Below, one piece after another: positions 3,799 through 6,397 of a stretch of 48,341 nucleotides of DNA. A program made the translations under genes and the position numbers. Source of the DNA: Halorubellus sp. JP-L1 (GTDB lineage: Archaea; Halobacteriota; Halobacteria; Halobacteriales; Natrialbaceae); assembly GCF_011440375.1 (NCBI RefSeq), contig NZ_JAAOIR010000005.1, positions 268,460 through 316,800 of the forward strand. Reading direction: 5' to 3'. Below the pieces are notes generated by a model that did not search any database, had not been told where the DNA came from, and saw only the letters and a list, made by a program, of their open reading frames with translations. The number at the start of each line of letters is the position of its first letter. Position 1 is the stretch's first letter.

Positions 3799-4665
3799 TC
3801 ACTCGTCGCCGGCGTCCGGTACGCTCGCTCGCGACCCGTCGACGGCGTCGACGACGCGTCCGAGTGCGTCCGTCTCGACGGCGTTCCGCGGCGCGGTCAG
3901 ACCGGAGACGCCGACTTCGCCGTCGATGACGGCGCGGCGCTCGGTCCCGACGTCGTAGCGCTCGCGGTGCTCGTCGATGCCCGGCATCGGGTTCTCCCAG
4001 CCGACGACGTGCGGCCAGAGGCTGTCCTGGAGGCCGATGACGTCCTGGTCGTCTTCGACGTCGACGGGGAGGTCGGCGGTGTCCTCGTGGCGCTCCACGT
4101 GGAGGTCGAAGTCGACGTCGGGGCGCGTCAGTCGGACCTTCGCGTCGGCGTCCTCGATGGGTGCGTTCACGTTCACGACGTCGACCGCGTCGAAGACGCC
4201 CTCGGCGAGCGCGCGCTCGACGACGTCGCGTGCGACGCGAGCGGGCGGGTCGAAGTCGTGGGCGTCCGGGGGACGGACGAAGAACTCTCGCGTGTGGTAC
4301 GCGGAGACGGCGACCGCGGGCGTGCCGAGGAACGCCGCCTCCATCGCGGCGCCGACGGTCCCGGAGCGGCCGAGGACGTACGCGCCGAGGTTCGGACCGT
4401 GATTGCACCCGGAGACGACGAGGTCGAAGTCCGCGTCGAGCCCCCGGAGGCCGTACGCGACGCAGTCCGCGGGCGTGCCGTCGACCGCGTACCCCCACGG
4501 GTGGTCCTCGCGCGTGACGTAACTCGAGCGCTCGCGGCCGACGCCGCTCTGGTTCTCCGTGGGCGCGACGACGGTGACGTCGCCGATCGCTCTGAGTTCC
4601 TCGTAGAGCGCGGCGAGGCCGTCGGCGTCGATGCCGTCGTCGTTCGTCAGCAGGACCTCGGTCAT
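3799..4665 (-). CDS. surE: 5'/3'-nucleotidase SurE
   Basis: SurE is a metal-dependent phosphatase that removes phosphate from nucleoside 5'- and 3'-monophosphates. The N-terminus MTEVLLTNDDGIDADG carries the metal ligands Asp9 and Asp10. Ser40 in NQSGVGR and Asn92 in SGCNHGPNLG complete the site. The 288 residues are typical. The reading frame is open much further upstream, but the ATG at 4665 puts the NDDG motif at the usual position. A TATA-like element on the minus strand near 4690 fits a leaderless transcript. It converges with the MFS gene, with only 39 bases between the two stops. Confidence 0.96.
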   Translation of the reverse strand: MTEVLLTNDDGIDADGLAALYEELRAIGDVTVVAPTENQSGVGRERSSYVTREDHPWGYAVDGTPADCVAYGLRGLDADFDLVVSGCNHGPNLGAYVLGRSGTVGAAMEAAFLGTPAVAVSAYHTREFFVRPPDAHDFDPPARVARDVVERALAEGVFDAVDVVNVNAPIEDADAKVRLTRPDVDFDLHVERHEDTADLPVDVEDDQDVIGLQDSLWPHVVGWENPMPGIDEHRERYDVGTERRAVIDGEVGVSGLTAPRNAVETDALGRVVDAVDGSRASVPDAGDE

Positions 4666-5079
4666 TGCACGAGCGTTGTCGCGTTCGCTCAAACGGCTTT
4701 CGGAAGGTCGGGCGTCGACGACGCCGACTGCACCCGAAATCGGGGGTTGCGGTCGGCGCGGGCGGCGTCGGGCCGACGGAGCGACGGTGTGGGATACGGT
4801 GGCGTACTGGGGTGCGTTTCGGACGGAGCTCCGACCCCGGTCACTGGAGCGCACTCGGGCGATTTCACACTCGAAACGAGGGGGTTCGCCGCGAGCGCGA
4901 CGGCGAATGCCCTCGCTCGGGCCTGACGGGGCGTCCGCGAGGAACGGACGGCTTCGACCCGAGGTCGATGGGCCGTTCGTCCCGGGCAGGCGGGCGGTCG
5001 TGGAGTCGAAACGAGGGGGTTCGATCGGTCGTCTCGGGAGCGACACGGGCCGTCGAACCCCGCTCTGGGGCGTCTACGC

Positions 5080-5155
5080 GGCGTCTCGGGTGGAACACCT
5101 GGAGCGTCAGACGCTCGGTCATCACGCGGTCTACACTCGAAACGAGGGTGTGCGG
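5080..5155. repeat. 76-bp direct repeat, copy A
   Basis: This 76-bp segment recurs at 5221-5296, 141 bases downstream, with roughly 90% identity. It contains a perfect 15-base palindrome gagcgtcagacgctc (5102-5116) and ends in an ORB-like site. Confidence 0.9.
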
Positions 5156-5220
5156 GGGTCCTCGGCCGGCTCTGGGGAGCGCTCCGGGGGCCTTCACACT
5201 CGACCCGACCAGTCACGTGG

Positions 5221-5296
5221 GGCGTCTCGAGTGGAACGAGTGGAGCGTCAGACGCTCGGTCATCACGCGGTCTACACTCGAAACGAGGGGGTTCGG
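5221..5296. repeat. 76-bp direct repeat, copy B
   Basis: This is the second copy of the 76-bp repeat, with the palindrome at 5243-5257 and the ORB-like site at 5271-5295. The palindrome minus its last base occurs once more at 33769-33782. Confidence 0.9.
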
Positions 5297-5400
5297 GCCG
5301 CGTCGACGGCGTCCGAGTTCCTCGGGACGCTCGGGGTTCTCGCAGCAGTCGCTCCCTCACAGGGACGAGACGGTCGTCGCGCGGCCCGCCCGAAGACCGG

Positions 5401-5610
5401 TCAGTCGACGATGATGTCGTCGTCGGTGATCGTCGGCTCGTCGGCCGACCCCGGCTGCATCTCCGCCTGATAGCGGTCGATCCACGCCGCGAAGCAGTCG
5501 GGACAGAGCCGCTGGGAGTCGATCTGCGTCCGGTCGACCGCGAGCCGGACCGTACGCGCCAGCGCATCCGACACCGGCTCCCCGCACTCGTCGCACGCGT
5601 CCTCCGTCAT
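5401..5610 (-). CDS. Small zinc-ribbon-like protein
   Basis: This is a 69-residue acidic protein with two Cys pairs, CDECGEP near the N-terminus and CPDCFAAW about 30 residues later, spaced as in a treble-clef or zinc-ribbon fold. The C-terminal tail is acidic (TITDDDIIVD). The ATG at 5610 is chosen over the upstream in-frame start because a minus-strand TATA-like element (tttattac, about 5632-5640) lies 27 bases upstream, giving a leaderless message. Small CPxCG-type zinc proteins are abundant in haloarchaea and mostly uncharacterised. The partner or nucleic-acid target is unknown. It sits between upp and the ORB-like block, transcribed in the same direction as upp. Confidence 0.75.
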   Translation of the reverse strand: MTEDACDECGEPVSDALARTVRLAVDRTQIDSQRLCPDCFAAWIDRYQAEMQPGSADEPTITDDDIIVD

Positions 5611-5719: not shown

Positions 5720-6397
5720 TCAGGTGGTGCGGAACGCGCGGTCGCCGGCGTCGCCGAGGCCGGGAACGATGAAGCCGTTCTCGTCGAGTTCGTCGTCGAT
5801 GGCGACGGTGAGGAGGTCGACGTCGGGGCACTGGTCGGCGACGCGCACCAGGCCCTCTGGCGCGGACACCGCCGACAGGCAGATGAGGTGCTCGGGCTCG
5901 GTTGCGCTCTCGAGGACGTGATCGAGGACGGTCGCCATCGTCGATCCCGTTGCGAGCATCGGGTCCGCGACGATGACGGTGTCCTCTTCCGTGATCTCGG
6001 GGAGCTTCACGTAGTCGACGGTGATGGGGAACTCGCCGTCGTCGTTCCGGCCGGCTTCCTCGTCGCGGCTCGCGGAAATGACGCCCTGGCGAGCGCGCGG
6101 GAACGCCTTCAGGAGTCCTTCGACGAACGGCGTCGCCGCGCGCAGGACGTTCACGATGACGACGTCGTCGAGGCCCTTGACGCGCTCGCCCATCGTGTCC
6201 GCCATCGGCGTCTCGATCTGGACGTACTCCGTCTCCATCCGTCCGTCGATGATCTCGTACCCGCAGATGCGGCCGAGTTTCACGAGGCCCTTCCGGAACG
6301 CGACCTGCTCGGTGTCGACGCTCCGGAGCTCCGACAGCGTGTCCTTCGCGAGGGCGTGCGTGACGAGGTACGCCTCGTCCCGGTTCTCGATCGTCAT
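5720..6397 (-). CDS. upp: Uracil phosphoribosyltransferase
   Basis: Upp salvages uracil by joining it to PRPP to give UMP. The PRPP-binding loop appears as DPMLATGST at residues 145-153, and the C-terminal uracil-binding part contains [12 protein letters not shown]. The length of 225 residues is normal. The start at 6397 fits a TATA-like element at 6421-6430 and a leaderless mRNA. The gene is divergent from the gene at 6530, and the 132 bases between them hold both promoters. The zinc-ribbon gene lies 109 bases downstream on the same strand. Confidence 0.97.

Follow-up and report, generated by a model that had tools for sequence, protein, structure and literature searches.

Gene content of the locus and layout of the array

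The window analysed here is a stretch of 48,341 bp corresponding to positions 268460-316800 of contig C5 in a haloarchaeal (Halorubellus) genome of 3.76 Mb. Between the start of surE (4665) and the stop of a gene for a DUF7569 protein (5401) lies a noncoding gap of 736 bp which carries four plus-strand copies of CGAAACGAGGG, at 273.3-273.8 kb of the contig. An initial annotation of the same DNA had reported four motif copies in one orientation and a degenerate fifth, all in a gene-free interval of about 735 bases and nowhere else in the window. This description holds, with the degenerate copy near 5192-5209; the remainder of the 48-kb window contains no further match within three mismatches, and 100 shuffles put the chance expectation at 0. 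The 21-nt boxes extend over 4865-4885, 5000-5020, 5131-5151 and 5272-5292, with GAAAC at 4873, 5008, 5139 and 5280, and are spaced by 135, 131 and 141 bp. Three of them run on into GGGGGTTCG and one into GGGTGTGCG, and in three of four the GAAAC core is followed by GGGGG, the G-string of an origin recognition box (ORB).

Features of the locus, in window coordinates:
3799-4665, minus strand: surE nucleotidase gene (PF01975), in this neighbouring position only in Halorubellus
4816-4828, minus strand: inverted ORB half-site of unit 1 (CTCCGTCCGAAAC), 57 bp before box 1
4865-4888, plus strand: ORB-like box 1 (TCACACTCGAAACGAGGGGGTTCG), ORB matrix score 22.6, genome-wide model E=0.023
4951-4963, minus strand: weak inverted ORB half-site of unit 2 (CTCGGGTCGAAGC), 57 bp before box 2
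5000-5023, plus strand: ORB-like box 2, ORB matrix score 22.2, exact 18-mer in common with the oriC1 region
5080-5156, plus strand: duplicated unit 3, 77-bp direct repeat, 92% identical to 5221-5297
5083-5095, minus strand: inverted ORB half-site of unit 3 (TTCCACCCGAGAC), 56 bp before box 3
5102-5116: palindrome GAGCGTCAGACGCTC of unit 3, core GTCAGACG at 5106-5113, starting 33 bp before GAAAC
5131-5154, plus strand: ORB-like box 3, G-string interrupted (GGGTGTGCG), score 23.0, genome-wide model E=0.7
5192-5209, plus strand: degenerate ORB copy (TTCACACTCGACCCGACC), below the matrix threshold
5221-5297, plus strand: duplicated unit 4, 77-bp direct repeat, partner of 5080-5156
5224-5236, minus strand: inverted ORB half-site of unit 4 (TTCCACTCGAGAC), 56 bp before box 4
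5243-5257: palindrome GAGCGTCAGACGCTC of unit 4, core GTCAGACG at 5247-5254, starting 33 bp before GAAAC
5272-5295, plus strand: ORB-like box 4, the strongest, score 29.7, genome-wide model E=0.0098
5401-5610, minus strand: DUF7569 gene, small zinc-finger-like protein (PF24453, E=2e-35), the conserved neighbour of the array
5720-6397, minus strand: upp, uracil phosphoribosyltransferase (TIGR01091), the gene next to DUF7569 at most loci checked outside f17

The two direct repeats, annotated at about 76 bp and measured here at 77 bp, each contain the perfect 15-base palindrome previously ascribed to them. This palindrome is a real element, its core standing at a fixed spacing of 33 bp, and it is lacking in the other two units of the window. 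Single-strand folding gave z=-3.2 for unit 4 and z=-2.0 for unit 3, values accounted for by the palindrome together with the inverted half-site, and we do not claim a conserved RNA here; an RNA gene at the array was likewise rejected, the Rfam search yielding sub-threshold chance miRNA matches only. Of the flanking proteins, SurE is 87% identical to that of Halorubellus salinus, and the DUF7569 product is a small CxxC zinc-finger-like protein for which a functional link to the boxes is possible.

The boxes match the recognition boxes of oriC1

We scored the boxes with a 21-nt ORB matrix whose 74 training boxes come from the oriC1 regions of genera other than Halorubellus. The matrix scores the four copies at 29.7, 23.0, 22.6 and 22.2, in line with the likeness to haloarchaeal Orc1/Cdc6 boxes suggested at the outset; since the training boxes were chosen by GAAAC-N3-GGGG near oriC1, GAAAC and the G-string are built into these scores and the flanking positions are their independent part. 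Scanning C5 (316.8 kb, score ≥14) yielded 15 sites: ten at 111.9-130.4 kb around oriC1, the four array boxes and a single one at 65.7 kb. Outside the oriC1 region of the contig, one lone site besides the array boxes scores in the range of the array, and none of the 5th-order Markov sequences (5 x 317 kb) scored as high as 12. A genome-wide sequence model gave 16 hits at E≤10 which include all four array boxes; 15 of the 16 lie on C5, a contig making up 8% of the genome. Sequence was taken directly for C5 and for local neighbourhoods, and what is said of the whole genome derives from searches.

Exact CGAAACGAGGG occurs nine times in 3.76 Mb, four times in the array and once in oriC1, which excludes a dispersed genome repeat, the outcome that would have spoken against the initial annotation. 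The longer TCGAAACGAGGGGGTTCG is found in three copies in the array and one in oriC1, with no others, and the 21 nt of box 2 (GAGTCGAAACGAGGGGGTTCG) are identical to a minus-strand site at C5:115784, between the oriC1 pair and orc1. The only TIGR02928 matches on C5 are at 116.6-117.9 and 197.8-198.9 kb. The orc1 gene of oriC1 is one of them and lies, like oriC1 itself, about 157 kb from the array; the nearest relatives of its product among solved structures are Cdc6-1 of S. solfataricus (2qby) and Cdc6 of A. pernix (2v1u). The paralogue at 197.8 kb was rejected as the cognate initiator, as there are no ORBs of the oriC1 type within about 2 kb of it. Judged by sequence, the four array copies are origin recognition boxes of the oriC1 type, which Orc1 would be expected to bind.

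Several further arrangements of boxes came to light. A few kilobases from oriC1, apparently inside the gene for the small subunit of DNA polymerase D, lies a divergent pair of ORB cores (L025:19854-19950, that is C5:119.85-119.95 kb), with 75 bp between the cores in this genome and 54-59 bp in several genera (L219, L230, L234, L236, L214). One strong lone ORB at C5:130345 (L138:10345) occupies the same intergenic slot in another genus (G020, L212:3960), and other single ORBs near oriC1 may likewise keep their positions between genera. Genome G107 has two near-identical oriC1 ORB regions on its contigs C9 and C11 (L231, L232), and another class of origin-like array, with repeated ACGACGGAAACGWGGGG boxes (L209, L210, L221), is distinct from the oriC1 type.

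Conservation downstream of DUF7569 and geometry of the units

The initial annotation had missed three features: an inverted half-site preceding every copy by 56-57 bp, the constant distance from palindrome core to ORB, and the conservation of the locus across genera. In what follows, f1 to f17 are group labels of the families in the comparison set, Halorubellus and its sister genus g2 both belonging to f1. Of 59 DUF7569 loci, drawn from eight families, 44 carry ORB sites within 800 bp downstream of the gene, and 28 have at least two boxes; the 59 loci share descent and are not independent, and the noncoding sequence around the boxes is divergent. All 74 DUF7569-downstream boxes examined for strand lie on the same one and none on the opposite, and the reversed matrix finds 0. 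By family, boxes accompany DUF7569 in f1 (8/8), f17 (22/22), f6 (2/2), f8 (1/1), f7 (6/8), f12 (5/10), f5 (1/7) and f14 (0/1, with one weak site), so that the locus is not universal among haloarchaeal families, as f5 and f12 illustrate. Spacings between units are mostly 131-154 bp, and 12 of the 19 in f17 are 132-135 bp.

In H. salinus the corresponding gap no longer aligns by blastn and two boxes are retained. The sister genus g2 (G001-G006) carries boxes downstream of DUF7569 in the orientation seen in Halorubellus, one of its species (L342) having a GNAT-like gene between DUF7569 and the boxes. The neighbour on the far side differs by lineage, being surE, a response regulator, a peptidase or a solute-binding protein, and regulation of surE was dismissed on the ground that this gene adjoins the array in Halorubellus alone. 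At f17 loci such as L369 the boxes lie between convergent genes, for an S9-type peptidase and DUF7569, and therefore serve no promoter there. In the measured cases on one contig the boxes are about 60-225 kb from oriC1.

We also searched the strand opposite the boxes, upstream of GAAAC, with only the left half of the ORB matrix. A sharp peak of half-sites appeared 55-57 bp upstream in the DUF7569 arrays of other genera and at all six Halorubellus boxes, amounting to 63 of 75 boxes with an inverted half-site at about this distance versus about 5-19% in seven control offset windows. That this geometry is a real initiator arrangement is supported by the divergent pair of full boxes found near oriC1 in several genera, with its 54-59 bp.

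A second location between nmd3 and htpX

Many f1 genera gave no match to DUF7569. In the f1 genera lacking this gene, the intergenic region between the divergent genes nmd3 and htpX contains one or more boxes at 57 of 60 loci, in many cases 80-146 bp ahead of htpX; the same region was free of boxes in all eight Halorubellus and g2 genomes (0/8) and in the 31 loci of other families (0/31). Loss of the one place is thus matched by the other, which suggests selection for off-origin boxes rather than regulation of a single gene, and argues for a box function independent of any one neighbour.

The two classes differ in their accessory parts. The half-site at 55-57 bp was not seen in the nmd3-htpX class. 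GTCAGACG, the core of the palindrome in Halorubellus units 3 and 4 and present in eight copies on C5, starts exactly 33 bp before GAAAC in both of these units and at 33 of the 88 boxes between nmd3 and htpX; because units 3 and 4 arose by a recent duplication, the spacing there counts as one event. Before DUF7569 boxes of other genera it was found at 0 of 70 sites, which rules it out as part of every DUF7569 array. In Halorubellus the DUF7569-type geometry thus occurs together with the accessory element of nmd3-htpX sites, which links both classes as one module.

Candidate functions of the array

Haloarchaeal origins are marked by an adjacent orc/cdc6 gene and by inverted ORBs around an AT-rich element (PMC3528665; PMC7776575). 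At the array the nearest orc genes (TIGR02928, C5) lie at distances of about 75 and 157 kb, AT content over 50 bp peaks at 42% versus 68% at oriC1, and the full boxes stand in tandem, with no inverted full ORBs around an AT-rich element. The initial annotation was right on the first two of these points, and all three tell against the possible origin, dormant or secondary, that it had proposed. Such an origin, with Orc1 supplied in trans, would agree with the match of the boxes to oriC1 ORBs and with the inverted arrangement within each unit, and a dormant origin is known in Haloferax mediterranei (PMC4595724). Nevertheless, we consider it unlikely, because the 55-57 bp between the arms leave little room for an AT-rich element, whereas at oriC1 of other genera 224-341 bp separate the paired boxes and the DNA in between is 63-78% AT, and a similar ORB cluster, oriC2D, has no replication activity (PMC3936714). 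The suggested check of GC skew cuts both ways: the cumulative minimum of C5 falls at 263 kb (C5:263172), about 5 kb before the window start and some 10 kb from the array, but several other swings of the curve are as large and oriC1 leaves no clear sign in it either, and we set this evidence aside as ambiguous.

The boxes might instead be a transcription-factor site at which Orc1, or a protein of the same specificity, controls a neighbouring gene. Their place ahead of htpX in most f1 genera would suit this role, which is nonetheless improbable given that boxes next to DUF7569 lie beyond its 3' end, that the f17 boxes can lie between convergent genes and that the far neighbour varies by lineage. 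Conserved tandem sites in the wider oriC1 neighbourhood, with a palindromic second element, could recall a parS-like site for chromosome organisation or segregation; here, however, the motif is the initiator box itself with its G-string and not another palindrome, and the palindrome is absent from two of the four units and from the arrays of other DUF7569 genera, so we give this idea little weight. A polar replication-fork barrier would explain the constant strand of the boxes relative to DUF7569, but their direction relative to oriC1 changes, from away in Halorubellus to toward the origin in g2 (G001, G002, G006), which makes a barrier highly improbable.

The reading we prefer, with a probability of about one half, is that Orc1/Cdc6 of the oriC1 type binds the array, a conserved locus away from the origin that regulates oriC1, probably by initiator titration. 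It builds on the ORB identity, the near-exclusive pairing with oriC1, the conservation, the composite geometry and the lack of origin hallmarks, all read from the DNA itself. A control role for oriC1 is favoured because the units have no origin hallmarks yet are conserved in two alternative places, and as an initiator-box cluster outside an origin the array is arranged like a titration region such as oriC2D or datA. The alternative offered in the initial annotation, an array for another protein, is half borne out: protein binding fits best, but the protein is most likely the oriC1 initiator itself.

In the mechanism that we infer, Orc1 would most likely bind each of the four units, composed of a full plus-strand ORB and an inverted half-site 56-57 bp upstream, and a second protein may occupy the palindromic GTCAGACG found 33 bp upstream of the ORB in two of them. 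Orc1 held away from the origin would lower or time initiation at oriC1, and once a passing fork had doubled the array more Orc1 would be bound, as datA does for DnaA in E. coli. Titration is our default, a DARS-like or other regulatory role being possible. The conserved geometry suggests more than passive titration, and an activating, DARS-like role would fit it equally well; many relatives have just one or two boxes at the locus, and so few would take up little initiator unless they bound it with high affinity or acted catalytically.

More broadly, and at somewhat less than even odds, haloarchaea may possess a widely conserved composite off-origin Orc1 control locus, a counterpart of datA/DARS, that normally lies downstream of DUF7569 and is replaced at nmd3-htpX in the lineage lacking DUF7569. 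Its measurable signature would be an ORB with a half-site at 55-57 bp, and in one lineage the auxiliary GTCAGACG at 33 bp, which points to a candidate second binding protein. How initiation frequency is set in archaea with Orc1/Cdc6 origins is poorly understood, and a locus of initiator boxes tens to hundreds of kilobases from oriC1 provides a specific handle on whether initiation in these organisms is controlled from off-origin sites, as it is in bacteria. Among the open-licence papers searched, we found no earlier description of an ORB locus linked to htpX or to DUF7569/upp.

Comparison with known systems

In E. coli, datA and DARS are clusters of initiator boxes away from the origin with a fixed geometry and a possible site for a second protein, and the array resembles them in each of these respects. 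The initiator is DnaA there and Orc1/Cdc6 here, no sequence kinship exists, and the like role of the array is a proposed one. Titration by datA is cited in PMC3936714.

With haloarchaeal oriC1 (PMC3528665) the array shares the ORB core, the G-string and one 21-nt sequence. It differs in having no orc gene, no AT-rich element, full ORBs in tandem and not inverted, and a shorter G-string without the second G run.

The closest parallel within haloarchaea is oriC2D of Haloarcula hispanica, an ORB-rich region downstream of cdc6E with 11 boxes for Cdc6E/oriC2 (PMC3936714). It has no origin activity, represses oriC2 and is proposed to titrate Cdc6E; it could be deleted only when oriC2 was removed, and it lowers the copy number of oriC2 plasmids (PMC3936714). 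Both are intergenic clusters of initiator boxes for which titration is proposed, oriC2D without origin activity of its own and the array without origin hallmarks. Whereas oriC2D, the sole haloarchaeal titration region found in the literature consulted, has 11 boxes next to its own cdc6 gene, the array lies 157 kb from orc1, consists of four composite units of the oriC1 type and, unlike oriC2D, recurs next to DUF7569 in many families.
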